Origin: Candidatus Thorarchaeota archaeon
Lineage (GTDB): Archaea > Asgardarchaeota > Thorarchaeia > Thorarchaeales > Thorarchaeaceae
Direction: 5' to 3'
Assembly: GCA_021498125.1 (NCBI GenBank)
Contig: JAIZWL010000001.1
Coordinates: forward strand, 385,434-449,433
DNA length: 64,000 nucleotides
In this document: positions 4,036-30,144 of the stretch, piece after piece
How positions within the stretch are numbered: position 1 is the first letter of the stretch
How the letters are laid out: every line of letters starts with the position of its first letter
Made by a program: the position numbers and the translations under genes
Notes under the pieces: generated by a model
What the model was told of the DNA's origin: nothing
Database searches by the model: none
What the model saw: only the letters and a program-made list of their open reading frames with translations

Positions 4036-4118
4036 CTAACATCCACACTCATCTAAATCGCACTACAATATGATAGCATTGCCCACAGATTAGAGTTGTG
4101 GGCATGGCGCGAAATATA

Positions 4119-4517
4119 TTATGACTTGACCCGGGTAATGATCTTCCGTCCCATTAGGTCCCATACTTCGACTTCTGCGTTGAGGGCGCATTTTGATGCG
4201 ATCTCATCGTCTGTTGGTTTGGGAACTTCGTAGGTCTCGTATGTTTCAGCATCCATCAGCTGGTAGGTTTCTCCCATGTCGGCAATAATTGTCGCACTTC
4301 TCTTGTCTATGACCGGAACATCGACCATTCTATCTGCTGGCATGATCGTGTTACGTTTACGACCATCAAAGAAGCCTATTGCAACAATATTGGCCTTTGC
4401 GGCTCCGTGCTTGCCCGGCTTCGACTTCTCAATCGATACTACTCGGCAAGGCTCTCCATCAATCAGAAAATAGCTCCCCGGTTTTAGGGTCTTCGCTTCG
4501 GTCTTCCGGATACTCAA
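4119..4517 (-). CDS. eif5A: Translation initiation factor aIF5A
   Basis: 132-aa two-domain factor that relieves ribosome stalling. The hypusine loop KPGKHGAAK is intact, with the modified lysine at K36. An N-terminal SH3-like domain is followed by an OB-fold domain. TTG start with GGTGA just upstream. Deoxyhypusine synthase is not in this window. The gene is a single transcript, with the NAD kinase gene divergent from it. Confidence 0.97.
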   Translation of the reverse strand: MSIRKTEAKTLKPGSYFLIDGEPCRVVSIEKSKPGKHGAAKANIVAIGFFDGRKRNTIMPADRMVDVPVIDKRSATIIADMGETYQLMDAETYETYEVPKPTDDEIASKCALNAEVEVWDLMGRKIITRVKS

Positions 4518-4651: not shown

Positions 4652-5521
4652 ATGATAGAAGAGAAACCAAAGATTCTGACAGACCGACGGCGAGTCGGAC
4701 TTGTCTGCAAGCCCGGACGGGTCGATATGGAGCACGTGGCTGCTAAGGTCACAGATTTTCTCACATCTGCGGGGCTTGAGGTGTTAGTTGATCCCGGTTC
4801 TTGTAATGTGGCCCAGCGCGGAGCTATCCCTACCCTGATTGAAGACTTTGATGTTGACTTTGTAGTGACAATAGGTGGCGACGGCACGATCCTTCATACG
4901 CTCAGCCTGCTACGTGATCGGGAGACCCCTCTCTTTTGCATCAATCGTGGGACTGTCGGGTTTCTCACAGAGAGTAGTACAACCGATGCGCTGGATGCGC
5001 TCAGGCAGGTCATAGATGGGAACTGCATTATTGAACGCTGTGTCAATATCTCTTCAGGAGTCGGAGATCTCCGTTTTGATGATGCTCTGAATGAGGTATA
5101 TGTGACCTCTCGATTACCCGGAAGACTGTTGACCTTCCAAGTCTATATTGATGGCACTAAGGTTGACTACGGTCGGGCGGATGGCGCAATGCTCTCTACG
5201 CCCTGTGGATCCACCGCCTATGCACTGGCCGCTGGCGGGTCTATCTTGACCCCTAATGTGCACGGTCTTATCTTTGTGCCAGTCTGTCCGCCTCGCTTCG
5301 AACTGAAGTCGCTGGTCATCCCCGATTCTAGTATGCTTGAACTGGAACTGACTAAACCTGGTGCTGGAGCACTTGCTGTCATTGATGGACAGACCCGCTG
5401 GGAGGTGGAACCGGGAAGTATGGTCTGGCTCCGCAAGTCTGACACAGTCACACGATTCATTCGTCTCTATGACAATTACTTTGATCGACTCAACACCCGT
5501 CTTGTGCCACGTACGCTCTAG
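4652..5521 (+). CDS. nadK: NAD kinase
   Basis: Phosphorylates NAD to NADP. Diagnostic motifs are present: TIGGDGTILH near residue 80, INRGTVGFLTE near residue 100, the NE pair in LNEVYV, and STPCGSTAYALAAGGSI, the conserved substrate-binding stretch. About 289 aa, normal for archaeal PpnK. The start is uncertain: ATG 4652 is given, while GTG 4637 in the same frame would add five residues. The next gene (Nob1) begins 9 bases after the stop, so the two are likely cotranscribed. Confidence 0.95.
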   Translation: MIEEKPKILTDRRRVGLVCKPGRVDMEHVAAKVTDFLTSAGLEVLVDPGSCNVAQRGAIPTLIEDFDVDFVVTIGGDGTILHTLSLLRDRETPLFCINRGTVGFLTESSTTDALDALRQVIDGNCIIERCVNISSGVGDLRFDDALNEVYVTSRLPGRLLTFQVYIDGTKVDYGRADGAMLSTPCGSTAYALAAGGSILTPNVHGLIFVPVCPPRFELKSLVIPDSSMLELELTKPGAGALAVIDGQTRWEVEPGSMVWLRKSDTVTRFIRLYDNYFDRLNTRLVPRTL

Positions 5522-5530
5522 GTGGTATAC

Positions 5531-6043
5531 ATGGGGGCGATCTTTGTCGTTGATGCCGGGGTCTTGTTTACGAAGTGGGTGGACAAAAATCCCGATGCGA
5601 AATTTGTGACGACAGACGAGATCGTACAAGAAGTCAGAAATCGTCCGAGCAAGCAACGTATTGATTTTCTCTTGTCCACAGGTCGCTTGAGGGTGGAGAG
5701 TTACGATCCACGAACAATTGTATCGGTCAAAAAGGCCGGGGCGATCACAGGAGACCGCCGAGTTCTCTCTGAGGTGGACACGAGTCTACTTGCACTGGCC
5801 CTGACCCGACAGCAGAATGGTCTTCCGGCAATTGTGGTCTCGAAGGACCTAGCTCTTCTTAATACTGCACTTGCTCTTGATCTCAAGGTCGTGGATCCCT
5901 CTGGTCGCCTGAAACGTAAGATCACTTGGGGGTATCGATGTCCTTCTTGCAAACATATCAAGTCGACTGCACCACCCGATCTTCTATGTCCTATCTGTGG
6001 AACGCAGATGCGACGTACTGCACTGAAGAGCAGACCTCTTTGA
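5531..6043 (+). CDS. nob1: Ribosome maturation endonuclease Nob1
   Basis: PIN-domain endonuclease that cleaves the 3' end of 16S rRNA (D site). The PIN fold starts with VVDAGVLF and continues with acidic residues in TTDEIVQEV and DTSLLALAL, followed by VVSKDLALLN. The C-terminus is a zinc ribbon, CPSC...CPIC, which separates Nob1 from toxin VapC proteins. ATG 5531 is preferred, with GGTGG upstream. 170 aa. Placed directly after nadK, as part of a housekeeping run with aIF5A and the tRNA. Confidence 0.93.
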   Translation: MGAIFVVDAGVLFTKWVDKNPDAKFVTTDEIVQEVRNRPSKQRIDFLLSTGRLRVESYDPRTIVSVKKAGAITGDRRVLSEVDTSLLALALTRQQNGLPAIVVSKDLALLNTALALDLKVVDPSGRLKRKITWGYRCPSCKHIKSTAPPDLLCPICGTQMRRTALKSRPL

Positions 6044-6129
6044 CACTGGACTTGAAATATTCCACAGTATTTCGTAGGTAATACCATATGTTATGTTCTA
6101 TGTAGATTCATACTGTCATGTGATTAGAC

Positions 6130-6384
6130 ATGGCAGAAGTGGGACTGACTATTAATCGTGAGATCGAAGATGTGAAGGCGCAAGTGCGTCAGGAACTTAA
6201 CACCATTCGTGAGTTACTTGACGAGTTCGGATATCGAGACAGTTCTCCCGGGTGGGATACGCCGTTCCAACTGTTCAAACTAAGGCGCGCAATGCGAGTT
6301 CACTATATGGCACTTCGGATGCGTGATGTCTCCGCCTCTCCTTTGGCCGAACCGGATATGATCTGGGAACTAAAGCACGAATAG
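6130..6384 (+). CDS. Small hypothetical protein, 84 aa
   Basis: Not recognised. Soluble, charged, predicted mostly helical: residues 1-35 look like a heptad-rich amphipathic helix (EIEDVKAQVRQELNTIRELLDEFG) and residues 45-70 carry several Arg and Met. No Cys or His motif, no signal peptide. Codon use resembles its neighbours, and ATG 6130 stands 86 bases after nob1. It converges on the YjbQ gene with a 9-base gap. Probably a real but lineage-restricted gene. Confidence 0.65.
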   Translation: MAEVGLTINREIEDVKAQVRQELNTIRELLDEFGYRDSSPGWDTPFQLFKLRRAMRVHYMALRMRDVSASPLAEPDMIWELKHE

Positions 6385-6393
6385 GAATTGTGA

Positions 6394-6813
6394 CTATTCA
6401 CCAAGAACCGTCACGTGTATCGCTCTGCTACGCGGTCGCACATCAAAGTCCACGAAGACGATCTGTTGCCATGTCCCCAGAGTTAGACGGCCTTCCTCTA
6501 TTGGTATAGTAAGACTAGGGCCAACCACCGATGCTCGCACATGAGAGTGTCCATTACCATCCCCCCATCTAAGGTGGTGTTCATAGACCGCATCTCTTGG
6601 TGCAATCCTCTCCATCGCTTCTGGAAAGTCCTTGAGGAGTCCTCCTTCATACTCGATGGTGGTCACTGCTCCTGTCGATCCCACACAAAAGACTGTACAG
6701 ATACCATTTCGAATCTCACTGTTACTGATCACTCTGTCAACTTGGCCAGTGATATCTATCATGTCACAGTGACCTTTTGTCTGGAACTTGATCTTCTCAT
6801 GATGTACCGCCAT
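6394..6813 (-). CDS. YjbQ/UPF0047 family protein
   Basis: 139-aa member of the UPF0047 fold (secondary thiamine-phosphate synthase YjbQ family). Conserved features: GICTVFCVGSTGAVTTIEYEGGL, a glutamate and histidine cluster in YEHHLRWGDGNGHSHVRAS, and the C-terminal GTWQQIVFVDFDVRPRSRAIHVTV. These His/Glu/Asp residues form the likely active site. ATG at 6813 with AGGAGG upstream. The physiological role in archaea is unclear; E. coli homologues only weakly complement thiE. Confidence 0.92.
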   Translation of the reverse strand: MAVHHEKIKFQTKGHCDMIDITGQVDRVISNSEIRNGICTVFCVGSTGAVTTIEYEGGLLKDFPEAMERIAPRDAVYEHHLRWGDGNGHSHVRASVVGPSLTIPIEEGRLTLGTWQQIVFVDFDVRPRSRAIHVTVLGE

Positions 6814-6875
6814 GATACAGTCATCCTCCTAATATAGCCGTCAGATCCAACTCACGATTGACGACGTGCCTCTAC

Positions 6876-8687
6876 CTATTCCGCGACTGCACGATAGTAT
6901 CTCTTTTGCGCCTCAATTAGGTCATGTAAGATTTTAGTCTTGTCACCAAGTATCTTTTCATTATCTTGGAGTGTCTGTTGAGCCTCAAGAGTCTCGGATC
7001 TATAGAGATGCCTTAGTATCGAAACTATTACGTTCATATATTCCTCGCCTGTGGTCAATGCAACTTCTTGCATCTCTCTAAGAACCTTATCTATCTCCTC
7101 AGACCCATTAGGGGTACGATTCCATAATGCATTGAATATTGTGAATAGATCCTCAAATGCTTCCTTTGGCTCGTTCATGTTTTTGAATCCCGTAAGTGAG
7201 TGCCTCAGGAGATCAATCGCTCTCCCCGTCAAGTCCTCTTCATCTGTCAGAAGGGCCTCTTTTCCAGCCGTTCTGTACCAAATCGTGGCCAGTTCTGCGA
7301 TTCCTGACTCTTCATACTTCTCAGCAGTTATTACTGCCTTTTCACAAGCCACCCAGTGGAATGATGAACTTCGCTCCATGTCTCCCATATTTCGTGCAGC
7401 CTCTGCGGCTTTACTGTATAGGCGTGACGCCTCGTCAATATTATCTGCATCAGTCTCATCTTCAGCCATTTGGATATAGAGTTCGATTGCCTGTTCAAGT
7501 AGTGCTCGTGCCTCGTCATCTGAACCTGCTTCATAGAGTACTGCTGATGCCTCCTCTAATGCAATGGCTTGGTTCTCTATTTCCCCTTCTTTTTCTCTAA
7601 GGGTTGCCTGATCCCGATAATGATCTATGACTTCACTGTAGACCCCAGTTGCAGCATCGTTGTCGCCCCAGTTCTTTAGACACATTGCCTGAAATCGAAG
7701 ATACCTGTTTGCAGTATCCATATCTCCCTCCGACTGTGCCTTTCTGGCCAAGTTCTCGAACAGTTCAGCAGCCCGCTTGAATGCCCAACGTGCCTTTATC
7801 GGACTTTGGACATCAACAAACATTTTCCCCGCCTTGACAAGTAGTGGGGCAACCACCTCGGCGGGGCCCTCCATCTGCATATACGCCTCGGAGGCCTTAA
7901 TCATTGCCTTCTTTCTCGCAGTAGTCAAACGCTCCTTATCGTATATTTCCTGAGCCGCATCATATGTGTTACCCGCCTTTTCGAATTGCCCTGCCTGTTC
8001 ATATAGACTTGCAGCTTCCATGAGCAAGCGGGTTGCCTCTGCATTGTTCCCTTCCTCTTGCAGTATTTGAGCAGCTTCAGCAAGAGCTGTAGCAGCCTCT
8101 TCAAAGTTCTGTTGGGACTTTGACTCATCTGCCCACTTCTTTGCTATACGAATTGCTCGCTGCAAAATCCTCTTGCCAAGTTCTCGGTTGTCGGTCGAAT
8201 TGTATAGACGCCCGACCTTTTTCAAAATCCGAACCGTTTCGGAATATTTGCCTTCCATCTCTCGCGAGTCGGCTTCATTCTCAAGTGCATCTGCTGCTTT
8301 GACTATCAATACGTTTCTCTTATCTGTGTCCTTTTCAAAGTCGGCCGCTCTAAAGAAGTACTCAGCGGCTTTCTTGTATTCCTTCGCTTCTTCAGCAATT
8401 GTTCCGGCAAGCTCGTTAATTCTTACAATCTCTTTTCTTGTCTGACCATTCTGTTCTACTCTGATCAGCATGACCATTGCTTTTTCTAGAATGTCAAAGC
8501 ACTCCGATGCCATGTACGCATCTCTGTATACTAATGCGGCCTCTTCATAGATCTTGGCTGCTCGTTCGTATCTCTTGTGTTTTTCTAGTGTTTCAGCCGC
8601 TTTTACGAAGAGCTTTGCTGCTGTCTTACGATCTCCCTTTTCGAGTTGACTCCTTGCAAGGTTGAGTACGTCTTGGAGTGTTGTCAG
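6876..8687 (-). CDS. Large TPR/SNAP-like helical repeat protein with apparent CTG start
   Basis: About 603 aa of tandem helix-hairpin repeats in the TPR/alpha-SNAP style: A-A-x-x-[YF] signatures such as AAEYFFRAADFEK, AAQILQEEGNNAEATRLLMEAASLYEQAG and AARNMGDMERSSSFHWVACEKA. No enzymatic motif; likely a scaffold. The first ATG in frame (8513) would cut into a repeat: 58 upstream codons continue the pattern (KLFVKAAETLEKHKRYERAAKIYEEAALVY). No ATG, GTG or TTG occurs in that extension, but a CTG at 8687-8685 sits 7 bases after AGGAGGT. Hence the start chosen here. The extent is strongly supported, the CTG itself less so. Confidence 0.75.
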   Translation of the reverse strand: MTTLQDVLNLARSQLEKGDRKTAAKLFVKAAETLEKHKRYERAAKIYEEAALVYRDAYMASECFDILEKAMVMLIRVEQNGQTRKEIVRINELAGTIAEEAKEYKKAAEYFFRAADFEKDTDKRNVLIVKAADALENEADSREMEGKYSETVRILKKVGRLYNSTDNRELGKRILQRAIRIAKKWADESKSQQNFEEAATALAEAAQILQEEGNNAEATRLLMEAASLYEQAGQFEKAGNTYDAAQEIYDKERLTTARKKAMIKASEAYMQMEGPAEVVAPLLVKAGKMFVDVQSPIKARWAFKRAAELFENLARKAQSEGDMDTANRYLRFQAMCLKNWGDNDAATGVYSEVIDHYRDQATLREKEGEIENQAIALEEASAVLYEAGSDDEARALLEQAIELYIQMAEDETDADNIDEASRLYSKAAEAARNMGDMERSSSFHWVACEKAVITAEKYEESGIAELATIWYRTAGKEALLTDEEDLTGRAIDLLRHSLTGFKNMNEPKEAFEDLFTIFNALWNRTPNGSEEIDKVLREMQEVALTTGEEYMNVIVSILRHLYRSETLEAQQTLQDNEKILGDKTKILHDLIEAQKRYYRAVAE

Positions 8688-14619: not shown

Positions 14620-15396
14620 TTATCCGTACATTCCCTCATAGCTTGGTGTTGAGGGTCCTACGGCCGGGCGTTTCATACCTTGTACCTGTTGGGCCATCTC
14701 TTCCATCTTCTTGCGGATTTGATCTGCACTCTCAACAAGTTCACTGACATCAATGTTGAATGCATATAGCCGGTTGAGTGCTTCAAGGAGTTGCACGGCG
14801 CCCTCTGGATCAGGAATGACCGCTATTGCTGGTGTCAGAAGCGCGAAACCTACCATATCCCTGCATAAGGTCTCTGAGAGAATGGACCCCGCAATTCCTG
14901 TTATGAGACCTTTTTTGAACATCTCAAGTTGCGAGTCCTTTGAGAGTTCTGCGATCTTCTCCTCCTCAGCCGCATAGAGAACCTTACGGTCCTTTGGGAG
15001 GCCTTGGACTGGAATGCCATCAAGAATAACGGTTTCCTTCACACCTATCTGTGCAGCCCAATCAAGAATGGCCGAGCTGACAGCATACATTCCGTTTTCC
15101 GCAACTGGTAACTCGGTCGTGACCACAATCAGGTTACGTTTCTCGTGACCATAGATGCGAAATGGGTGTCTCAGCCTGCCATCCATAAAAATCGCGGCGG
15201 ACGGAATGTACCTCGATCGCACATGCGCAATCTCGGTCATCTCAAATTGCTCAATGATGGTATTGGCAGCCATTATCCCGACAACACCTGCACTGGGGAA
15301 GCAGCACACAAGTAGGGGATTGTCGAGATCAATAGTTTTTGTTTGGACTACCTTCGCTTCGGGATATCCTAAGACACTGGAACTTTGTTCTTCCAT
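14620..15396 (-). CDS. PAC2 family proteasome assembly chaperone-like protein
   Basis: 258-aa PAC2-fold protein related to archaeal PbaB and eukaryotic PAC1/PAC2. Family features: LLVCCFPSAGVVGIMAANTII at residues 28-48, then VVTTELPVAENGMYAVSSAILDWA, ETVILDGIPV and a C-terminal helical coiled stretch (residues 215-245) before a flexible tail ending EGMYG. PbaB-type proteins bind the 20S proteasome through C-terminal residues; whether this tail does so is uncertain because it lacks a clean HbYX ending. ATG start at 15396. Single gene between convergent and divergent neighbours. Confidence 0.88.
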   Translation of the reverse strand: MEEQSSSVLGYPEAKVVQTKTIDLDNPLLVCCFPSAGVVGIMAANTIIEQFEMTEIAHVRSRYIPSAAIFMDGRLRHPFRIYGHEKRNLIVVTTELPVAENGMYAVSSAILDWAAQIGVKETVILDGIPVQGLPKDRKVLYAAEEEKIAELSKDSQLEMFKKGLITGIAGSILSETLCRDMVGFALLTPAIAVIPDPEGAVQLLEALNRLYAFNIDVSELVESADQIRKKMEEMAQQVQGMKRPAVGPSTPSYEGMYG

Positions 15397-19916: not shown

Positions 19917-20828
19917 ATGGATATCGATCGTGCTCTTAGCAAATTGAAGTTCGATGAATCTGTCGTAGGTTATACATTAATCACCAACGATGGTCAGCTC
20001 TTCCTCTCCTTTTCGATTCCCGATTCGGTCATTCCTCAGATCAAAGGTGTACTCAAAATTCACTCCACCTCGTTAAAGATGATGAATGTCATGAGCGAGC
20101 ATGGCGTTGTTGTTCTTGGGCGCATAAATCCTGATTGGATTCTTGCAGTGTTATTTGCAGAGTCTTCTCTTGGAATTGCGCTTCAGAAAACAAGTGATGT
20201 CATTCGTCTTTTGATGCAGGTGGATCTCCCTCCACCCCCTCAGCCATCCCCGTCGGAGGCAAAAGAACCTCCGTCTGAGGTGCCAGCAGATGAGGTTGCA
20301 GTAGAACCTACTCCACCGAGTATCCCTGATGAAACTATTCCCCTTGAAACAATTCGTGTTCAACATGGTTGTGTTGTCTTACGGGGGCCACGATTTACCA
20401 GTGCCATGACCATGGACTCGCAACTGAATCAAGAACTACGAAAATATGCAATGGTTGGTATGGACATCCTTCTCATGGTTGACGAACAACGTACGGTCTA
20501 CAAGATATCTGATGCATTAGATCGTCCGGTGGATGACATCATCAACGTAGTTCGGTGGTGTGTATCTCGACGCATAGTGGATGTTGAATGCCCCGAGGAA
20601 CAGGCGACTGGGGCACGTAAGATAATCGAGGTCCCGCTATTCGATGGTGACCTTGACAAGGTGAAGAAACAGCACCGACCTGTCCTCGAACTATGTGATG
20701 GCACACGCACGCTTAACGAGGTTGCTGATATTCTTGGGATCAAGTACTTTGAGGCACTTCAGGCGACACTCCCCTACAAAGGGAAGTCTCTCAAATTTGT
20801 TAAGACCGATAAAATATTGAAAAAATAG
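19917..20828 (+). CDS. Roadblock/longin-like plus winged-helix protein, copy 1
   Basis: 303 aa in three parts. Residues 1-100 (RALSKLKFDESVVGYTLITNDGQLFLSF...) have the alpha-beta pattern of roadblock/LC7 or longin-like domains. Residues 101-142 are a Pro/Glu-rich linker. Residues 155-303 hold two small helical/winged-helix units (YKISDALDRPVDDIINVVRWCVSRRIV and ELCDGTRTLNEVADILGIKYFEALQATL). A full-length paralogue lies at 22800-23762. A V4R/TRAPP-like gene follows 12 bases later, the same order as in the second copy. Roadblock domains regulate small GTPases, so a GTPase adaptor is the best guess. ATG start, preceded by GAGAGGT. Confidence 0.75.
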   Translation: MDIDRALSKLKFDESVVGYTLITNDGQLFLSFSIPDSVIPQIKGVLKIHSTSLKMMNVMSEHGVVVLGRINPDWILAVLFAESSLGIALQKTSDVIRLLMQVDLPPPPQPSPSEAKEPPSEVPADEVAVEPTPPSIPDETIPLETIRVQHGCVVLRGPRFTSAMTMDSQLNQELRKYAMVGMDILLMVDEQRTVYKISDALDRPVDDIINVVRWCVSRRIVDVECPEEQATGARKIIEVPLFDGDLDKVKKQHRPVLELCDGTRTLNEVADILGIKYFEALQATLPYKGKSLKFVKTDKILKK

Positions 20829-20840
20829 GAGGCACAACTC

Positions 20841-21347
20841 TTGGGTGTCAAAGGAAAGCTCGCATGGGCTTTAAAAATAGAAAAAGTTGCGAAACCACTG
20901 TTTCAGGCAACGTATCGCGAACTGATGAACATATTGATTCAGACGAGTGATACTGTGGATGAGATCAACGAAAAGATGAAGGCCATAGGCTTCAAGGTCG
21001 GCGAAGATCTCCTCATGGAATATGCGGATAAGATAGGCAAGCATGCTGGAACCTTCGCTGAGTTCTCATCAACGTTGCAACTGGCCTACAAAGTCAATTC
21101 GGGTCAGCCGTTCACTCGTATTGACATCAGTGAGGATGGTACTGTTGTACGCTTCACAGATGAGCACTGTGTTCTCTGCGAGGGCGTGGAGATTACTGAT
21201 ATGCCCGGTCTGCAATATTGCAATCTTATTAGCGGCGTCTTTCAAGCTGTCATGGATCTCAGAGGCTTTAATGCCGAGGCGTATCAAGAATCATGTAAGG
21301 CATTAGGGGATTCGGCCTGCACTTGGACCATCCGTCTAAAAGAATGA
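20841..21347 (+). CDS. V4R/TRAPP (Bet3-like) domain protein, copy 1
   Basis: 168 aa. The C-terminal two thirds fit the V4R/Bet3 fold shared by TRAPP subunits and archaeal small-molecule-sensing V4R domains: HCVLCEGVEI, GLQYCNLISGVFQAVMDLRGFNAEAYQESC and GDSACTWTIRL, with four Cys at positions common in V4R proteins. The N-terminal 60 residues are helical. TTG 20841 has AGGAGG at 20827. It is coupled to the roadblock-winged-helix gene (12-base gap). TRAPP is a eukaryotic vesicle-tethering GEF; Bet3-like homologues have been reported from Asgard genomes. Function here is unproven. Confidence 0.78.
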   Translation: MGVKGKLAWALKIEKVAKPLFQATYRELMNILIQTSDTVDEINEKMKAIGFKVGEDLLMEYADKIGKHAGTFAEFSSTLQLAYKVNSGQPFTRIDISEDGTVVRFTDEHCVLCEGVEITDMPGLQYCNLISGVFQAVMDLRGFNAEAYQESCKALGDSACTWTIRLKE

Positions 21348-21479
21348 TTTTCGCTCCACATTATCAACTTTGTTGCATTGCCATTGGAGAAAGGCCAAAC
21401 TCAAATACGGATTTGGTACATATGTATAAATGGTACTAATACAACACGAATGTGAACTTTGCATATTGGAGGTAACAAC

Positions 21480-21980
21480 ATGGGACAGGTCCTTGGAACG
21501 TTCGTCGGTCTGCTAATTGCTTTTGTCTTTACTTTTCTTATCTTGATGTTTGGAGGCTCTATTCATGAGGACCTCATAAATCCCGCAATCGTTGCAGATT
21601 TTATCAACCGTCCGGATCTGGAGTTCAAGCTCGCTATAGTCGGAACTGTCCTCTATCCTCCGTTCCTTGGAATGCAACTAGGTTTTGGTGCGCAGGGATC
21701 CACCATCCTCATGTTTCTGGCCTGGGGTGTTGGTGGGCTTATTGCTGGGCTTCTTGCACGAGATATTGTCCCTGGTATTCTTGCTGCTGTGTTGTCCGTT
21801 GTGATTGGCGCCTTTCTCATCTGGCTTCTTGTGTTCTTCATTGGGACTGTTGATTTTATGGCGTTATTTGGCGGAGAATCTATGCTTATCCTTCAGTTTG
21901 TCTTAGAGGGTGCACTCTATCCCGGAATTGCAGCAGCAATAGGTGGTCTTATCGGCGGGGCCATTATGCGTGATCGATAG
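21480..21980 (+). CDS. Hypothetical membrane protein with four or five helices
   Basis: 166 aa, very hydrophobic. Helices at about 5-25, 50-72, 78-95, 100-128 and 143-162; Gly-rich turns (GGLIAGLLARDIVPG, IAAAIGGLIGGAIM) resemble small membrane-regulatory or transporter-like proteins, but I recognise no family. ATG 21480 follows a clear GGAGGT at 21469. It separates the two copies of the roadblock/V4R pair and overlaps the 3' end of a convergent gene by 17 bases. Confidence 0.65.
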   Translation: MGQVLGTFVGLLIAFVFTFLILMFGGSIHEDLINPAIVADFINRPDLEFKLAIVGTVLYPPFLGMQLGFGAQGSTILMFLAWGVGGLIAGLLARDIVPGILAAVLSVVIGAFLIWLLVFFIGTVDFMALFGGESMLILQFVLEGALYPGIAAAIGGLIGGAIMRDR

Positions 21981-22599
21981 GCGTGATCTCTGACAGGTCG
22001 CCTAGTGGCTTGCCGCACGCCGAACAGATCAGCGGTCTTGATCTATACACTGCACCACAACTGCATATAGTTTCAATCTTTTCTGGAATCGGGGGATCGG
22101 CATGTGTGCGTGCCTGTTTCAATACGATTGCAACTGGTATTGCTGTGAGTAGGGAGCTCTGAGCCAAAAGGAGGCTGGTCGTGAAGATAAATAGCAACTG
22201 AAGGTTTCTATCAGGTTGATTCCAGAATGATGGAGTGGTGAATAATATCGAACTGGTGGCAACGATTGCCAGTATCGTGCCTAACCAGATACTGGAACGT
22301 ACAGTATTCCACCCCGGCTCTGAGAGCGGTCCAAGAGCCAGTCCTGCAATGAGCCATATTGGAAGGTATACTACTACTGATGTGATCATCTCGGAAACCG
22401 GCCCGATCTGAATCAGCGTGGAACTCGCCGAAAGCAGAAATGCGATCAACACGGGTAAACTAGAATATTGTGTGAGGCTCAAATGAACCATCATATGCAT
22501 CGTAATGGTCGTCAAAATAATGGCCACAATGGCACCCGTGATATTCTTCATCAGTCGCACTTGTCCTAGTGATGATGTTGTTTCTATCTCGTGCAGCAT
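21964..22599 (-). CDS. Hypothetical membrane protein with C-terminal zinc ribbon
   Basis: 211 aa. Four hydrophobic helices occupy residues 20-160, then the cytoplasmic tail carries a rubredoxin-like zinc ribbon, CSCGAVYRSRPLICSACGKPL (two Cys-x(1-2)-Cys knuckles). Such ribbons often mediate protein interaction in archaeal membrane proteins. ATG 22599 is used; TTG 22605 is in the same frame. It is convergent with the preceding membrane gene. Not recognised beyond this. Confidence 0.65.
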   Translation of the reverse strand: MLHEIETTSSLGQVRLMKNITGAIVAIILTTITMHMMVHLSLTQYSSLPVLIAFLLSASSTLIQIGPVSEMITSVVVYLPIWLIAGLALGPLSEPGWNTVRSSIWLGTILAIVATSSILFTTPSFWNQPDRNLQLLFIFTTSLLLAQSSLLTAIPVAIVLKQARTHADPPIPEKIETICSCGAVYRSRPLICSACGKPLGDLSEITPIDHA

Positions 22600-22799
22600 T
22601 AGCAATGCTCTTTATGATTTCCTATTGGTTCGTATGGTCTGTTTAGGCGGATGCTATTGCAGAGGCTAGTATTCTCTTATCAAAAGTTGTATATGATGGT
22701 CTGTACAATATCACCACAACGCTTTTCAGAACACTTTGAGTTTCATATAATTGTAGATGATAGACCAAGCATATCTCTGGGACTGTAAGGTGATTTAAC

Positions 22800-23762
22800 A
22801 TGGCTAGTGGCGACCTAGAACGAGCACTATCAAAACTAAGATTTGATGATCAAGTCATAGGTTACTCTCTAATGACAAAACAGGGTAGGCCTTTTGTGAG
22901 CTTTTCATTTCCGGATGACCTATTCCCTCGTGTTAAAGAGAGCATTGGCTTGTACAAGAGCGATCTGCGGTTAATGACCATTGACACAGATATGGGTCTA
23001 GTCGTACTAGCGCCAGTCGATGAGAACTGGATCTTGACAGTGTTGTATGTCCCTGAACTTCAGCTTGGTCTTGCAATTGCAAAAACTAAGAACGTCTTGC
23101 GTATGTTGGAAGGTGTTGAACTACCGCCTCCTCCCGAGGAGTTTGAAGAGGCCTCTGAGTCAAATCTTGAAGTCCTAGAAGAGATTGGAATGCAGGCCGC
23201 CTCCACTGAAGCAACACCCGTGACCGAGACTGCACCTGTTCCCGAGCCTGAGCCAGTTCGTGAGTTGACACCATCCGATTTTCTTGTTACTCTGTCAACC
23301 GTGCCAAAGAAGGGCGAGGCTTTCTCAACAGCTCTCTCACTGGACTCTGATCTGTACTCTGAGATGAAACGTGCCTATCGCAATTTTGGGTTTGACGTTC
23401 TGATGCTTGTGGATGGTAAACTGACGGTCAGTGCAATTGCCGAGTCGATGTTTCAACCCACTGAGCGTGTTATTGATCTTCTCAAGTGGGCAGCATCGAA
23501 GCGAATACTTGAGCTTCCTTTGGCCGACACCCTTGAAGGTGAGGCTAAGACTGGCATAGGTGGACGGTTCGTTAAATGTCCCAAGTACGAGGGTGATATG
23601 TCTAAAGTCGATTCTGAGCATCGTTCGATTGTTGAACTATGTGATGGGACCCGGACCACCGAAGATATAGCAGAAACGGTGAAGGTTCCCGTTCCGAGAG
23701 TCATTCAAGTGCTTGCAAAATATCGCAGATACGGAATGAAAATGGTCGGGAAAAAGATCTGA
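22800..23762 (+). CDS. Roadblock/longin-like plus winged-helix protein, copy 2
   Basis: 320-aa paralogue of the protein at 19917-20828. The N-termini align residue by residue (ERALSKLRFDDQVIGYSLMTKQGRPFVSFSFPDD), the Pro/Glu-rich linker is longer (about 105-165), and the C-terminal winged-helix units are preserved (MFQPTERVIDLLKWAASKRILELP and VELCDGTRTTEDIAETVKVPVPRVIQVL). ATG start with AGGTGAT upstream. Followed after 31 bases by a V4R protein, as in copy 1. The shared domain order implies that the two-gene unit was duplicated as a block. Confidence 0.77.
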   Translation: MASGDLERALSKLRFDDQVIGYSLMTKQGRPFVSFSFPDDLFPRVKESIGLYKSDLRLMTIDTDMGLVVLAPVDENWILTVLYVPELQLGLAIAKTKNVLRMLEGVELPPPPEEFEEASESNLEVLEEIGMQAASTEATPVTETAPVPEPEPVRELTPSDFLVTLSTVPKKGEAFSTALSLDSDLYSEMKRAYRNFGFDVLMLVDGKLTVSAIAESMFQPTERVIDLLKWAASKRILELPLADTLEGEAKTGIGGRFVKCPKYEGDMSKVDSEHRSIVELCDGTRTTEDIAETVKVPVPRVIQVLAKYRRYGMKMVGKKI

Positions 23763-23793
23763 TTTGTATATTCCCTACTGAGAGGTCAATGAC

Positions 23794-24267
23794 ATGGCAA
23801 GGATAGAGAATCCACTATTATTGAGTATCTATGGTCAACTAGTTGACAAGATCCTTGCAGAAACCAATAATATCGAAGAGGCTAATGAGCGTCTCAGGGA
23901 TCTTGGTAGAAGTATGGCTGAGCAAATCTATCTCACCACTGAGATAGTAGATAAGACTAAAGACACGATCATGACCCGCGAGGATGTGGCCAAGCTTATC
24001 GAGACTGTATACAAGACCCTTTTTGATCGCAAGCCCTCTGAGATTGACATGGAATCTGCCAGAGGTTCTGTTCGTGTGACAGACACATCGTGTGTATGGT
24101 GTCAGGATGTGAATCTTGAAGGAATGCGCGGTTTTGGGTATTGTGAGGTCTTCAGTGGTATACTTCAGGCAATTCTGGAGTACAAGGGCGTCGAGGCCAA
24201 AGTCTTTGAGGAGACCTGTAAAGCAACAGGCGGCGCAGCTTGTTCATGGAATGTTCGTCTGTCATAA
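23794..24267 (+). CDS. V4R/TRAPP (Bet3-like) domain protein, copy 2
   Basis: 157 aa, paralogous to 20841-21347 and with the same Cys framework: SCVWCQDVNLEGMRGFGYCEVFSGILQAILEYKGVEAKVFEETC and GAACSWNVRL. The N-terminal helix-rich half (LSIYGQLVDKILAETNNIEEANERLRDLGRSMAEQ) resembles Bet3/TRAPPC3 proteins, which begin with a helix pair. ATG 23794 with GAGGTCA upstream. A third family member starts 77 bases downstream, so the three proteins could form a hetero-oligomer; that is inference. Confidence 0.8.
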   Translation: MARIENPLLLSIYGQLVDKILAETNNIEEANERLRDLGRSMAEQIYLTTEIVDKTKDTIMTREDVAKLIETVYKTLFDRKPSEIDMESARGSVRVTDTSCVWCQDVNLEGMRGFGYCEVFSGILQAILEYKGVEAKVFEETCKATGGAACSWNVRLS

Positions 24268-24344
24268 ATAATAGACCACAGCAAAGCACTTAACGCGCCT
24301 TGCAGATTGCATTTACAGATTGCATATACTGGAGGAAACCGTTC

Positions 24345-24902
24345 GTGACAAAAGAGCCAGAGATAATCCCTTGGTGGCAAGGGAAACTTAAAGAGCGCGA
24401 ACTCATGCGTGCATTTTTCGCCAAGACATGGTCAAAGATTGGAAATAGGATTGCTGTTATGTTCCCGGATCGTGTGAGGGATCTCTATTACAGTGCAGGT
24501 AGACTTGCGGGTCTTGAGGCCCAGAAGGAGTACTTTAAGATTGGTAAGCAGAAACCTCCTGGTGATTTCAAGGGTATTGTTGAGTTCATCAAGACTGCTC
24601 TCTCAACACTGATCATACCCTTTGGTGATGTAAAAATCGAGAAGCTTTACAAGCTCTGGCTAGATGAAGAGGCAATTCTCGAGATTCACGATAACCCCTA
24701 TGCAGCCGGAGTACAGAGCGAAGAGCCATCATGCTATTTTCTCAAGGGTTTCATCGAGGCCATTCTCGAGTATCTTACAGATTTCAATAGAATCGAATAC
24801 GCAACCCTTGAAGTCGTTGAGCAGGAATGTATGTCCACTGGTGCTGATGTATGCCGTTTTCAATTGAAACTCAGTTATCCTGCCAAAGGCGGTGGAAACT
24901 GA
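24345..24902 (+). CDS. V4R/TRAPP-like protein, third and divergent member
   Basis: 185 aa. The C-terminal half keeps the V4R pattern (SCYFLKGFIEAILEYLTDFNRIEYATLEVVEQEC then GADVCRFQLKL), and the N-terminal half adds a longer helical region than in the other copies (IPWWQGKLKERELMRAFFAKTWSKIGNRIAVMFPDRVRDLYYSAGRLAG). GTG 24345 is chosen because GGAGG lies at 24331; a longer reading from TTG 24300 has no support. It closes the V4R cluster. Confidence 0.75.
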   Translation: MTKEPEIIPWWQGKLKERELMRAFFAKTWSKIGNRIAVMFPDRVRDLYYSAGRLAGLEAQKEYFKIGKQKPPGDFKGIVEFIKTALSTLIIPFGDVKIEKLYKLWLDEEAILEIHDNPYAAGVQSEEPSCYFLKGFIEAILEYLTDFNRIEYATLEVVEQECMSTGADVCRFQLKLSYPAKGGGN

Positions 24903-24953: not shown

Positions 24954-25697
24954 ATGGTGATGTCAATGCGTCGAGCAGTCGTGCTAGTATCTCTTGTATT
25001 GGCCATGACCGGGTTACTAGCAGTACTGACAATCGAGGACCAATTAGGTCACAATGCATTGATCATTCAGGATCTTTCTTTCTCGGGCTCCCTCTCTAAT
25101 CCTGTAGAAACCTTTGGCATGAGCCTAGGCATCGGAACTATGGCTGTTGTACAAGGGGGTACTACTGGATTCCATTCCATGGCTCTATCAGGAATTCCTC
25201 TTGTCTTGGGGACGGTTGCTGTAGAGAAACGGTCTGAAAAGCAGACTTCACTTCGGTGTCGTATCGTCAACGAAATCTCGGAGAATCCCGGTATTCATCT
25301 ACGGGAACTCTTACGCAATGTTGGTTGTGCAATGGGTGCCCTTCAGTATCATCTAAAGAATCTCGAACAGGCGGGTGTAGTAGTTTCCATTCGCAACGGT
25401 AATAGTAAGCACTTTTTCATGGCGGATTTCTCTTCGAATCCGCAGGTGATGCAGCTTGCTGCTCTTCTCAGGAATCCAACCATTCATGCAATTATTGATG
25501 AGTGCAAAGCAAATGGCCGGGTCACACAGGCGCACCTGAGTCGAATGCTCTCGATTGACAAGAGTCTGATCTCATACTATGCAACGGCTCTTATTGACTC
25601 GGGATTTTTAAAGATCATCCCGGTCTTTGGACGCGAACGACCTCTTACTCTCACCGACTATGCTCTGTCCGCATTAGGTGAGCTTGGTGTATCTTAG
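24954..25697 (+). CDS. Membrane-anchored double winged-helix transcription regulator
   Basis: 247 aa. A signal-anchor helix at residues 6-26 and a second hydrophobic segment near 60-85 precede two winged-helix domains: one MarR/ArsR-like (EISENPGIHLRELLRNVGCAMGALQYHLKNLEQAGVV) and one closing HTH (ANGRVTQAHLSRMLSIDKSLISYYATALIDSGFL). Membrane-tethered regulators of this design are common in Euryarchaeota and Asgards. The start is leaderless-type, so 24954, 24960 or 24966 may be used. It precedes the ABC exporter genes and may sense envelope state. Confidence 0.82.
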   Translation: MVMSMRRAVVLVSLVLAMTGLLAVLTIEDQLGHNALIIQDLSFSGSLSNPVETFGMSLGIGTMAVVQGGTTGFHSMALSGIPLVLGTVAVEKRSEKQTSLRCRIVNEISENPGIHLRELLRNVGCAMGALQYHLKNLEQAGVVVSIRNGNSKHFFMADFSSNPQVMQLAALLRNPTIHAIIDECKANGRVTQAHLSRMLSIDKSLISYYATALIDSGFLKIIPVFGRERPLTLTDYALSALGELGVS

Positions 25698-25822
25698 GAT
25701 GTCAATAGTACAATAGTGACTGTAACTGTAAGCTTATCTTGCTAATTTCAGCAGTCTTTTTAGAAACCCGAAGATGTTTTCATCCGTGTGATGAATGGCC
25801 CTGGTCAAGGTTGAATGTTGCC

Positions 25823-26581
25823 ATGCCTGATGATATAGTCAATGACTCGGATTACGATATTGGTCTGTTGACCGAAGATGATGTTGATGAATCAGAAGAA
25901 GTCACATATGCGGTTCGTCTTGTTGATGTCCATCGGGAGTTTACCATTAGGGATCAAACCGTAAAGGCACTTAATGGAGTTTCTCTGGATGTTGCTCCTG
26001 GCGAGTTTGTTGTCGTAGATGGTCCCAGTGGGGCCGGAAAGACCACACTCCTTAATGTGATAGGGGCTCTCGATTATACTACCTCTGGTCGTGTAATCTT
26101 AATGGATGTTCCGATCAATGATTACGATGAGTCATTTAGGGCAACATTTCGTCTGACATATACTGGCTTTATCTTTCAGAGCTACAATCTCATCTCGACT
26201 CTGACCGCGCTTGAGAACATAATGTTCCCCATGCAACTTTCGGACAAGCCGATAAAGGACATTGAGGCTCAGGCTTTGAATCTCTTAACACAGGTCAGTC
26301 TTGCTGATAGGCAACATCATCTGCCATGGCAGTTGAGTTCGGGGGAACAGCAGCGCGTTGCGATTGCCCGAGCCATGGCAAACGATCCTCCACTGATCTT
26401 GGCTGATGAGCCTACTGCGAATCTTGACGACACAAGTGCAGATATTGTCAGAAAGTATCTTGTGGAACTGAATGGTCGGGGAAAGACCGTGATTGTAATG
26501 ACGCACGATGATAAGATCATTCAACTCGATGGTGTACGGCGTTTTCATATGGTTGATGGAGTGCTGAGTGAGGTTGAATGA
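25823..26581 (+). CDS. MacB/LolD-type ABC exporter ATPase
   Basis: 252-aa ATPase with Walker [12 protein letters not shown], signature [17 protein letters not shown], Walker [15 protein letters not shown] and the switch His in MTHDD. The [10 protein letters not shown] form is typical of the MacB/LolD/FtsE branch, which works with FtsX-type permeases. It has an unusual acidic N-terminal extension of about 30 residues ([24 protein letters not shown]). ATG 25823 chosen. It overlaps the permease gene by 14 bases. Confidence 0.93.
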
Positions 26582-28424
26582 GCGACAGGACTATGCATCT
26601 ACCGACTTGAAGCGTCGCCCCTTCAAGACCGCTATTATGATCACAGGCATGACCATTGTTGTTGCCTTTACCATGTTCTTGTTTCTATTCGCCAATACGC
26701 TTCTTGATGTGACGTTCTATATCACTTCAGCAAACTTCATGCATTCTCTCAGTATTTTCTTTGAAACCTTTATTGGGGCTATCCTGTTACTGGTCATGGT
26801 CCTCGGAGTAGTTATCTTCTCCAGCATGATCTCTCTTGAGATGGTAAGCCGTCGTAAGGACATTGGACTCATGAAGGCCATCGGAACCATGATCGATACT
26901 GTCTATGATCATTTTATGGCACAAGCGGTCATTCTCTTACTAGCAAGTGTCGTCTTGGGCACGAGTATCGGCACCCTTCTCTATTTTGCCGGAATGCTCT
27001 GGCTCTCCACTGTAATACCCAATCTTCAATTTGCTGGAGTATTTCCCATCCTTCCTGTTGCATTTCTGGCATTCCTCTACCTCTTTGTCGGATATTTTGC
27101 AGCCCAAAAACCAATCTATGATGCTGTTCATGAGTTGCCGCTCACTACATTGAATCCCGTCTTGGGGACTCGCGTGCGCAAGGTTGGCTATCTTGACTCA
27201 TTTGGACTCTCCTTTAAGATTGCTACAAAGGCGACTGGACGCAGGATTAAAGGGTCTCGCCGAACTCTTCTCTCTCTATTTCTGAGTATCACGCTTGCAT
27301 CTGTACTCTGGATTGGAGGAGGGGTCGTTCAGACCACAACAAGTTCATACATCAGCCGTTCTATGGGTACTAATATTGTGGCCATAGGGTCCTCTCAAGT
27401 CTTGAACAGTTATGAGGCTGCATACACCTTAGGGAACGGCCATCTTGCTAACCAGACACTTGTTAATGCAAGCAACCTCATCCCCTCTGATCTTCTTGAC
27501 GACCTTCAGGCAATACCCGCCATAAGCCATATTGAAGAACGCCTTATCGAAGAGACCACTATTCATGAGGGGCCCGCCATAGTATGGAATCCAACTCTTG
27601 AGCAGTGGGAACGGATCGGTCAGGACCGTGATGCAAGTGCTCTGGTCATGGGAATTGACTGGACGCATACGCTCTCGGACTGGTACTTTGAAGGCGATCC
27701 AATTAATGCGACAAATCAGGCATGGATTGGCGGAATGCTTGCAACAACAGCCTATGATGATCCTTTGGTGCAGACTCTTCAATTACAGGGGGCATCTCTT
27801 GATATTCGTGGGATTGCTTTTGATATTGCGAATGATGGGCTTGTTGCTCTAATGGACCTTGAGACCATGAAATCGCTCTGGAAGGTATCTCTGCCAAATC
27901 TTGTCCTTGTTCAGCTGGACTACTATACCAATGATACGATCGCACAGATCGCACAGGTTGCTCAGAATTATGGTCTGCAGGTCTTTGCCCAGCAGTATCT
28001 TCTTGACTCGAATATTGCAACCCTCAACGCGATCTGGTATCTGCTCCAGCCTCTCTCTGTCATGGCGCTTCTCAGTGCGTTTGTTGCATTGATGAATTAT
28101 CTCTTGGTGTCTGTGTTCAGTAGGTTCCGCGACTATGTCATCATGCGTTCCATAGGTGCTAAACCTTCCTTCCTTGCGAAGACCATAATTGCTGAGGGTC
28201 TCAGTACTGGGTTCACTGCTGGCATTCCCGGAATATTTGTAGCGATTCTTCTCAGTCTGTATGCACTGGTTCCAGAAGCAGCAATACCCGGGCTATTGTA
28301 TCTGCCAGTATCATTTGGTCTGATGATCGGTGCACTGGTAATCGTAACAGTCCTTGCAGCCCTCCCTGTGTATCTCCTCTTTTCCAGTAAAATGGAATTC
28401 CGAGTCTCAGAGTTTCAAGTCTGA
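26568..28424 (+). CDS. FtsX/MacB-type ABC transporter permease
   Basis: 618 aa with two FtsX-like units: helices near 22-45, 60-85, 120-145 and 160-185, then after an internal repeat start (FGLSFKIATKATGRRIKGSRRTL) an outer domain of about 210 aa (residues 265-475) and three C-terminal helices (480-505, 535-560, 575-602). This eight-helix duplicated form is more like LolC-type or antimicrobial-peptide exporters than the four-helix MacB. GTG 26568 overlaps the ATPase stop; TTG 26574 is an alternative. Substrate unknown. Confidence 0.88.
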   Translation: MRLNERQDYASTDLKRRPFKTAIMITGMTIVVAFTMFLFLFANTLLDVTFYITSANFMHSLSIFFETFIGAILLLVMVLGVVIFSSMISLEMVSRRKDIGLMKAIGTMIDTVYDHFMAQAVILLLASVVLGTSIGTLLYFAGMLWLSTVIPNLQFAGVFPILPVAFLAFLYLFVGYFAAQKPIYDAVHELPLTTLNPVLGTRVRKVGYLDSFGLSFKIATKATGRRIKGSRRTLLSLFLSITLASVLWIGGGVVQTTTSSYISRSMGTNIVAIGSSQVLNSYEAAYTLGNGHLANQTLVNASNLIPSDLLDDLQAIPAISHIEERLIEETTIHEGPAIVWNPTLEQWERIGQDRDASALVMGIDWTHTLSDWYFEGDPINATNQAWIGGMLATTAYDDPLVQTLQLQGASLDIRGIAFDIANDGLVALMDLETMKSLWKVSLPNLVLVQLDYYTNDTIAQIAQVAQNYGLQVFAQQYLLDSNIATLNAIWYLLQPLSVMALLSAFVALMNYLLVSVFSRFRDYVIMRSIGAKPSFLAKTIIAEGLSTGFTAGIPGIFVAILLSLYALVPEAAIPGLLYLPVSFGLMIGALVIVTVLAALPVYLLFSSKMEFRVSEFQV

Positions 28425-28473
28425 AGGTAATCCTCTTAAGATATTGGCTGTGTTCGAGGTTTGAGGTGTAAAG

Positions 28474-30144
28474 ATGCCTGAAATACCCCAAGAAGAGGAG
28501 ATTTCCATACACTGGATCCAAGATGTCTTGGACCGAGTCCTTGAACGCGATGTTGATGAATACCTGCTCTCAGCTGGTAAGAGTCCGAGTGGAAGCATAC
28601 ACATTGGTTTCCTACGGGAACTGATCATCTCGGATGTCATTAAGCGGAAACTTCTCGATATGGGTAAGAAGGCACGTACAATGTTCATCATTGATGACTA
28701 TGACCCCGTACGGTCTTTTCCCCCTGGCATCTCACTCTCGCTTGATGATTGGGCGGGAGTCCCCTATTCCGATGTGCCAGATGAGTTTGGGTGCTGTTCG
28801 AGTTTTGGGGCCCACTGGGGAAACGAACTCATCCGTGCGCTCCCCGAATATGGCCTTGACCCTGAGATAGTCTGGACCTCTGAGATCTACAAGATGCCCG
28901 AGATGGTGGAAGAGATCCGATTATGCCTGCGGAACACAGAGGTCATTCGAGAGATCATGATCGAGTTTGTCGCACGCGACTTTAGTCCCGAGCAACGTGC
29001 AGAGTATGTCGAGTCAATGAAGCAATGGTATCCGGGTTCGGTAATATGCCCCAAGTGTGGTCGTCTGCAAGCAGGGAAAAAGGGATCTATCCAACCTAAT
29101 AGAATCCTATCCTATGACCCTGATACGGATGAGGTCTCATTCAAGTGTCACTACTGTGGTCTTGAGGACAAGCGTCCTTTGAGTGAGCTTCGAATCAAGC
29201 TGACTTGGCGTATTGATTGGCCTGTCAAATGGCACATCTTCAATGTGACGTGCGAGCCCGCAGGGAAAGATCATGCCGTCAAGGGTGGTTCATACGATAC
29301 TGGTCTTGAGGTCTCACGGAGAGTCTTCGGATGGGAAGGGCCGGTTAAAGTCCCATATGAATGGGTTCAAATCGGCGGCAGAGACATGGCCACCTCTGAA
29401 GGTATTGTGTTCAGTCCTAAGGTCTGGTTAGATATTGCGCCGCCAGAACTGTACAGGTTCCTGATGCTCAAGACCGACATCTCACGTACCATCAATATAC
29501 AGCCGGATCGGATTCCCGACTTTGTAGACCAGTATGACCGTTTTGAACGGATATACTACGATCTCGAAGATGTGAACGAGGAGTCCAAAAAACTGGCCAA
29601 GCTGTTGTATCCATTGTGTGAGCCAAAGCCCGTTAATGACGAGTACGTTCCTAAATTGCCGTTCAAATATGCAGTCGTCATGTCACAGCTTGATGAGATT
29701 CTTGGACATGATGTTGTCATTGCAAACTGTGTAGCGGCTCTCAAGAAGCAGTTCTCTCTGTCCGAGGTCTCGGAGGAGTCCATGTATCATATCGAGCGTC
29801 GCCTTCGAATGGCCCGTAACTGGGTGCAAGAATATGGAACTGCACGTGATCGTGTTTCTATCCCACCAACAGTTCCGCCAGAGATTCGTCAGACGCTCAC
29901 TGACAAGGATAAGGACTTCCTCAAAGGTCTGCTTGAGCGACTTGAACAAACCGAACTGAGCGACGAGGAGATTCAGACAATTGTCTTCGAGACCGCTAAG
30001 GGCGTGGGCCTAAAAGATAAGCGTGCCTTTATTGTTCTCTATCGAATTCTCATCTCACGCAAATCCGGTCCTCGGCTTGGCCCATTTCTTAACCTTCTTG
30101 GGTTGGACTGGGTCCGAAAACGAATCGCAAGCGTGTTGGAATAG
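28474..30144 (+). CDS. lysK: Class I lysyl-tRNA synthetase
   Basis: 556-aa class I LysRS, the archaeal form. The HIGH-type motif is SIHIG at residues 41-45 within SAGKSPSGSIHIGF; a zinc-ribbon insert has CPKC (202-205) and CHYC (235-238). The KMSKS-equivalent loop reads GGRDMATSEG (311-320), a marked departure from the KMSSSKG-like sequence usual in class I LysRS; the catalytic lysine of that loop is missing. Charges tRNA-Lys. The C-terminal anticodon-binding helical domain runs from about 390. ATG 28474 with GAGGTG upstream. Confidence 0.94.
   Translation: MPEIPQEEEISIHWIQDVLDRVLERDVDEYLLSAGKSPSGSIHIGFLRELIISDVIKRKLLDMGKKARTMFIIDDYDPVRSFPPGISLSLDDWAGVPYSDVPDEFGCCSSFGAHWGNELIRALPEYGLDPEIVWTSEIYKMPEMVEEIRLCLRNTEVIREIMIEFVARDFSPEQRAEYVESMKQWYPGSVICPKCGRLQAGKKGSIQPNRILSYDPDTDEVSFKCHYCGLEDKRPLSELRIKLTWRIDWPVKWHIFNVTCEPAGKDHAVKGGSYDTGLEVSRRVFGWEGPVKVPYEWVQIGGRDMATSEGIVFSPKVWLDIAPPELYRFLMLKTDISRTINIQPDRIPDFVDQYDRFERIYYDLEDVNEESKKLAKLLYPLCEPKPVNDEYVPKLPFKYAVVMSQLDEILGHDVVIANCVAALKKQFSLSEVSEESMYHIERRLRMARNWVQEYGTARDRVSIPPTVPPEIRQTLTDKDKDFLKGLLERLEQTELSDEEIQTIVFETAKGVGLKDKRAFIVLYRILISRKSGPRLGPFLNLLGLDWVRKRIASVLE

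Follow-up and report, generated by a model that had tools for sequence, protein, structure and literature searches.

A duplicated roadblock-winged-helix and TRAPPC3-like gene pair from a Thorarchaeota genome recurs across Asgard archaea

A 64,000-nucleotide stretch from the genome of a Candidatus Thorarchaeota archaeon (3.1 Mb, 98% complete; contig C1, 385434-449433; hereafter the window) carries two paralogous copies of a two-gene unit, in which a gene for a roadblock protein with two winged helices (R) directly precedes a gene for a TRAPPC3-like protein of the V4R fold (V). The paralogy of the units and the folds of their products are clear, the two genes co-occur tightly and over a broad phylogenetic range, and in two lineages they share operons with GTPase genes. 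We favour, with a probability of about 0.55, the reading that each pair encodes a ligand-binding, GTPase-linked two-component platform, for which we infer the complex, the ligand and an action as guanine nucleotide exchange factor (GEF) or GTPase-activating protein (GAP).

To our knowledge, hardly any of the dozens of Ras-like GTPases and roadblock or longin proteins encoded in Asgard genomes have been assigned a partner. According to the published view, operons do not help to match the GTPases to the roadblock and longin proteins (PMC10933270). Here, gene order assigns a TRAPPC3-like protein its platform partner and, for two of the lineages, a specific GTPase as well. The recurrent pairing opens a possible forerunner of eukaryotic membrane-traffic control to direct tests. 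If the complex forms, the pre-eukaryotic origin of the Rab GEFs (TRAPP) and of the Rag GAP (GATOR1) could be approached with three small purified proteins.

Two paralogous gene pairs and a third V4R gene

The two pairs, termed A and B, and the V4R gene that follows the second of them comprise these reading frames:

R-A, 19917-20828, + strand: 303 residues; roadblock (residues 1-103), proline-rich linker, winged helix 1 (~160-224) and winged helix 2 (~251-300)
V-A, 20841-21347, + strand: 168 residues; TRAPPC3-like V4R protein, with a TTG start after GGAGG
R-B, 22800-23762, + strand: 320 residues; paralogue of R-A, with a roadblock and two winged helices
V-B, 23794-24267, + strand: 157 residues; orthologue of the crystallised Thor-TRAPPC3 (7YH2, 7YH3)
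V-C, 24300-24902, + strand: third V4R gene (PF02830), with a weak match to MJ1460

A sequence-only reading of this DNA had proposed two paralogous pairs and a third V4R gene at these positions, as well as a cysteine framework, and the open reading frames and pairwise comparisons confirm both. R-A and R-B align end to end (34% identity across 315 residues, E = 6e-58), while V-A and V-B share 29% identity (E = 5e-32) with their cysteines in register. Only 12 nt separate R-A from V-A, and the gaps between R-B, V-B and V-C are of ~30 nt, V-C starting 32 nt past V-B. Both V-A (32.0 bits) and V-B (31.9 bits) score above the cut-off of 27 for the Pfam TRAPP family PF04051; V-C lies above the Pfam V4R threshold (44.9 bits) and is 67-88% conserved within Thorarchaeota. 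The Pfam roadblock match of the R proteins of the window reaches just E = 0.12.

Predicted folds of the R and V proteins

Searching the PDB by sequence with the R profile gave no significant match, and fold comparison was therefore needed. R-A and V-A, which share a reading frame, were modelled with AlphaFold2 (AF2) as one artificial chain read through the intervening stop (39 aligned rows). The mean predicted local distance difference test score (pLDDT) was 85.9, high within each domain, with a predicted template modelling score (pTM) of 0.44, which leaves the model uninformative about the R-A/V-A interface. From its N-terminus, the modelled chain shows an α-β-β-α-β-β-β-α roadblock, a disordered linker (Pro/Glu), a pair of winged helices and the TRAPPC3 fold; R-B, modelled alone (pLDDT 82.9), likewise shows a roadblock followed by two winged helices. 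The proline-rich linker and winged helices of the sequence-only reading are thus upheld by the models, and nowhere did the predictions give unrelated folds. Its description of the N-terminus as roadblock- or longin-like holds in its first half: strand order and Foldseek both indicate a roadblock in the window, longins being found at this position in other Asgard lineages.

In Foldseek searches, R-A matched roadblocks (9jue and 7f8m, including those of MK-D1 and Thor) and the NPRL2 chains of 9o5a and 9o5d. The best PDB match of R-B was 8adl_S (E = 4e-7), followed by 9o5a_H and 9o5d_D, interspersed with roadblocks, Ragulator p14/MP1 and MglB; the Thor, MK-D1, Ragulator and MglB roadblocks superpose with TMt ~0.55-0.73. 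By their predicted fold, then, the R proteins belong with the roadblock proteins. The V-A model matched Thor-TRAPPC3 with TMt 0.84-0.87 and the mouse, human and Naegleria TRAPPC3 with TMt 0.82-0.88 (best root-mean-square deviation (rmsd) 1.5 Å).

Kinship with TRAPPC3

In eukaryotes, TRAPPC3 is a core part of TRAPP, an activator (GEF) of Rab GTPases. V-B matches the crystallised Thor-TRAPPC3 over its full length (E = 3e-74, ~70%) and, judged by sequence, is its orthologue, a part of the present picture that has already been published (PMC10933270). By sequence, V-A is the more eukaryote-like of the two paralogues, a TRAPPC3 nearer the eukaryotic one than V-B or the crystallised protein. As a single sequence, V-A finds the Naegleria TRAPPC3 with E = 1e-11 and the human one with 1e-5, compared with ~0.4 for V-B against human. 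The V-A family profile reaches 1e-17 (Naegleria), 3e-13 (fly), 1e-11 (human) and 1e-9 (yeast Bet3) against just 0.007-0.08 for the V-B profile, a gap of which the more diverse rows of the V-A profile may account for part; the single-sequence searches point the same way.

V-A shares its fold and cysteine-rich site with Thor-TRAPPC3, and cysteines 110, 113, 127, 152 and 160 are invariant in its family alignment. The zinc cysteines of the Asgard proteins (CxxC...YC...C) align with Asn and Ser of eukaryotic TRAPPC3, in agreement with a published comparison with the mouse protein (PMC10933270). Pfam score and predicted fold place the V proteins in the TRAPP-domain family, although they do not carry its acylated cysteine. 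A V4R tree placing eukaryotic TRAPPC3 was dropped, as its deep branches were unresolved and its long branches (V-B, eukaryotes and V-D) attract; we therefore make no claim on direct descent or on the timing of the V-B split. Neither the duplication nor the V-A paralogue nor the neighbouring R gene is mentioned in the paper on Thor-TRAPPC3 (Tran et al. 2024, PMC10933270), and no description of V-A was found in the open-access literature searched.

The R-V adjacency across Asgard archaea

Relatives of V-A occur in eleven families beyond Thorarchaeota, with matches in 71 of 228 Asgard genomes, Thorarchaeota included. The sequence-only reading had expected conserved adjacency in related genomes, and the neighbourhood survey bore this out: in at least eight Asgard families a gene for a platform domain with a winged helix-turn-helix (platform-wHTH) lies directly 5' of the V gene on the same strand, an arrangement with few exceptions. 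Such an upstream partner was seen in f5, f9 (Hermodarchaeota), f11, f12 (Baldrarchaeota), f13 (Borrarchaeum), f14 (Njordarchaeota) and f16, amid unrelated flanks; simple synteny was rejected as the cause of the adjacency, since the flanks differ outside Thorarchaeota. A partner lies no more than 149 nt from 73 V genes (median gap 15 nt), and its C-terminal wHTH bears the motif ILxLCDGxxTxxEIAxxLG. Among the fetched loci, the wHTH is carried by 61 of the 71 genes upstream of V versus 16 of 718 other genes, a comparison in which some of the tested sequences are also part of the wHTH profile and related genomes do not count as independent; nearly all of the 16 likewise adjoin V4R genes.

The N-terminal domain of the partner varies. 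Sequence inspection indicates a roadblock-like domain in f1, f5, f11, f12 and f16, a longin in f13, at a second f16 locus and, in part, in f14, and a CxxC domain in f9. The roadblock-wHTH and longin-wHTH profiles have the wHTH in common (E = 5.9e-9), and one f7 locus (L058) encodes a longin-V4R fusion. At two further loci (L063:5216-6975 and L065:6817-8545) the order is reversed, a gene for a longin (FUZ/MON1-like, E = 0.0015) with a wHTH coming after two V4R genes in tandem. We found no description of the R-V gene pairing in the open-access literature, a search by which subscription papers and bioRxiv were scarcely covered, and we provisionally regard the pairing as new.

Of 22 Thorarchaeota loci fetched, most retain the order of the genes in and between the two pairs, the close relatives at this locus being Candidatus Thorarchaeota metagenome-assembled genomes such as SMTZ1-45 and AB_25. 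Adjacency inside this group is weak evidence, because the whole block from PfkB to the lysyl-tRNA synthetase (LysRS) is syntenic throughout Thorarchaeota. The exception is the joint absence of R-A and V-A from two loci (L039 and L056), which speaks for the pair as a unit. At L052 R-A is split by a frameshift, and V-A is without a match in several further genomes of the genus (g4) to which the L040 genome, G025, belongs.

GTPase genes in sister loci

The most TRAPP-like gene string seen is that of Candidatus Borrarchaeum weybense (L099:3893-7513), in which three Ras-family genes (3893-4453, 4666-5244 and 5270-6043; PF00071, E ~1e-40) are followed by a longin-wHTH gene (6222-6851), a TRAPPC3 gene (7001-7513) and a gene for a MoxR-AAA/VWA protein. 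Sybindin, the TRAPPC1/C4 family, matches this longin weakly over nearly its whole length (E = 0.03), with no match in the close Borrarchaeum relative L139; weak Sybindin matches over Borrarchaeum and f10 range from E = 0.03 to 0.05, and the best PDB match of the longin profile is TRAPPC1 (E = 0.006), followed by Bet5 and sigma-adaptins.

The window genome itself holds a third copy of the module on another contig (G000 contig C4, L156), where a small GTPase gene (5047-5592), a CxxC-wHTH gene (5614-6063) and a V4R gene (6063-6677) overlap or nearly overlap, followed by a convergent gene for a geranylgeranyl-reductase-like FAD enzyme. This order is kept in 9 of 9 related loci from eight Thorarchaeota genomes, and the copy occurs twice in one relative (L166). 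In the window genome, the Ras profile has 26 matches, among them members of other GTPase classes, and 16 roadblock matches reach the cut-off; such genes are common, yet too few to explain the recurrent gene order. In MK-D1, GTPase genes generally lie outside operons with roadblock, longin or TRAPPC3 genes (PMC10933270), a pattern to which the GTPase/wHTH/V4R operons are exceptions in other lineages. Of the GTPase link drawn by the sequence-only reading, these gene strings independently support the general association; next to pairs A and B no such gene was found, and any biochemical role is hypothetical.

At four Hermodarchaeota loci (L061:5480-9379, L096, L098 and L102) the CxxC-wHTH/TRAPPC3 pair lies between a lactate-racemase-like gene (LarA) and HMG-CoA reductase. 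Because this enzyme and, at the third Thorarchaeota copy, the geranylgeranyl-reductase-like one adjoin the module, an isoprenoid or lipid ligand for V is a reasonable guess.

Comparison with known systems

In the eukaryotic TRAPP core, TRAPPC3 flanks the longins TRAPPC1 and TRAPPC4. The loci described here resemble it in tying a TRAPPC3-type gene to a roadblock or longin gene; in Borrarchaeum, the longin is Sybindin/TRAPPC1-like and Ras-family GTPases join the link. In the window, however, AF2 and Foldseek identify the partner as a roadblock instead of a TRAPPC1/TRAPPC4-type longin, its winged helices are undescribed in the small TRAPP subunits, and V-A retains the zinc cysteines without the acylated one; we do not claim that the window pair is a TRAPP complex.

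NPRL2 is a subunit of the Rag GAP GATOR1. A sequence search identified chain 8adl_S, the best match of R-B, as yeast Npr2, and NPRL2 is present in 9o5a, 9o5d, 7t3a and 9v0j. In Npr2 and Npr3, three wHTH domains follow a longin (PMC3521125), and R-B, as modelled, similarly joins a GTPase-platform N-domain to tandem winged helices; the N-domain of R, with its N-terminal helix, five strands and C-terminal helix, is of the roadblock and not of the longin type. Against NPRL2, the wHTH profile of R reaches 11.1 bits, its best domain lying at residues 187-239 (best of 2000 shuffles, 5.8), while the profile-profile comparison of R with NPRL2 (hhalign, with a template of two sequences) was not significant. 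The global superposition of R-B on Npr2 is poor (rmsd ~20 Å), and the likeness therefore lies in domain order, not in arrangement. In contrast to NPRL2 in GATOR1, no DEPDC5 or NPRL3 partner was seen for R. We conclude that R, as modelled, resembles NPRL2 in architecture, with suggestive support from sequence.

The roadblock of R-B has the fold of MglB (match to 6izw); unlike in MglA/MglB, no MglA neighbour lies at the window pairs. With PoxR the V proteins have the V4R fold in common, but they are stand-alone proteins of 157-168 residues, without the AAA+ and HTH fusion of PoxR/DmpR.

Discussion

On the favoured reading, V would be a V4R dimer of the TRAPPC3 type, its fold assigned by homology to solved structures, whose internal cavity would accept a hydrophobic ligand. 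R would dock onto this dimer through its conserved C-terminal winged helix, a role suggested because the wHTH is the only part of R retained in all lineages. The winged helices probably bind a partner protein, as a constant element, rather than DNA. The interchangeable roadblock, longin or CxxC domain would be the surface at which a small GTPase of the Ras/Rab/Arf type makes contact, as suggested by the biology of roadblocks and longins and by the GTPase genes in sister operons. Ligand occupancy of V could then set GTPase recruitment or a change of nucleotide state, with the complex acting as GEF or GAP, and pairs A and B may represent two platforms with different GTPases or ligands.

Several observations weigh against this reading. 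Pairs A and B have no adjoining GTPase gene, the nearest Ras-like gene (41655-42191) lying ~17 kb off, and no confident interface between R-A and V-A was predicted in the tethered artificial chain. One Thorarchaeota locus (L040, genome G025) keeps an intact R-A next to a V-A reduced to a 31-residue remnant (L040:9205-9319), and in families f4 and f6 the V4R genes stand in tandem with no R gene as partner. Where eukaryotic TRAPPC3 has its acylated cysteine (human Cys68), V-A has Phe, with Cys in the eukaryotic sequences only. Finally, GFP fusions of Asgard proteins, Thor-TRAPPC3 included, are diffuse in HeLa cells (PMC10933270).

Winged helices usually bind DNA, several Pfam transcription-factor models match R weakly, and V4R domains serve as ligand sensors in bacterial activators such as PoxR (discussed in PMC10933270). 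The pair could accordingly be a split, ligand-responsive transcription regulator, in which V senses a hydrophobic molecule as in PoxR/DmpR, R binds DNA through its winged helices and the roadblock merely dimerises. We consider this unlikely: the N-domain is swapped among GTPase-platform folds, GTPases stand in the operon in two lineages, and over its full length R finds its best structural match in Npr2/NPRL2, where the winged helices are part of a protein complex. Certain recognition helices are also very hydrophobic, although the overall hydropathy statistic favours neither DNA nor protein binding. A different possibility, and a distinctly improbable one in our judgement, is a Ragulator/GATOR-like scaffold without GEF or GAP activity of its own, in which dimers of R anchor a Rag/Arf-like GTPase at the membrane or the cytoskeleton, V having no role beyond stabilising R. 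It would fit the LAMTOR2/3 roadblocks among the Foldseek matches of R-B, the proposal that Thor-RB, which has no basic membrane patch, is a scaffold (PMC10933270), and the R alignment, which has no obvious invariant loop Arg that might act as an Arg finger, R8 in the N-terminal helix being the only invariant Arg of the domain; it leaves the cavity-type fold and zinc site of V unexplained, and eukaryotic TRAPPC3 forms part of a GEF.

The lowest probability of all goes to the view that R and V are co-transcribed through lineage history only and that their products act separately, the V proteins as free lipid or ligand carriers, as in the ligand binding or transport that Tran et al. favour for Thor-TRAPPC3 (PMC10933270). 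The PfkB-to-LysRS synteny in Thorarchaeota agrees with it, whereas outside this group the wHTH partner still lies directly upstream of V despite different flanks, the pair itself is duplicated, and a further GTPase/wHTH/V4R copy stands elsewhere in the genome. A bolder and quite unlikely reading is that the platform-wHTH/TRAPPC3 pair was an ancestral lipid-sensing GTPase regulator and the source of both the TRAPP core (TRAPPC1/C4 with TRAPPC3) and the longin-wHTH arm of GATOR1 (NPRL2/3), reading isoprenoid or lipid state through the V4R cavity; this last element is suggested by the isoprenoid-lipid genes that adjoin the module in two lineages.

Neighbouring genes

Pairs A and B are not in tandem, as two membrane-protein genes stand between them:

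TM1, 21459-21980, + strand: conserved membrane protein, possibly part of the module
TM2, 21964-22605, - strand: convergent gene for a membrane protein that bears zinc-ribbon-like CxxC motifs at its C-terminus; its position is conserved, its identity low

Past V-C (24954-30144) lie genes for a regulator with two wHTH domains and a hydrophobic stretch at its N-terminus, for an ABC ATPase and its FtsX-like permease, and for a lysyl-tRNA synthetase of class I, in an order conserved across Thorarchaeota. Upstream, a gene for a PAC2-family protein (14620-15396), similar to proteasome assembly chaperones, is syntenic with the block.

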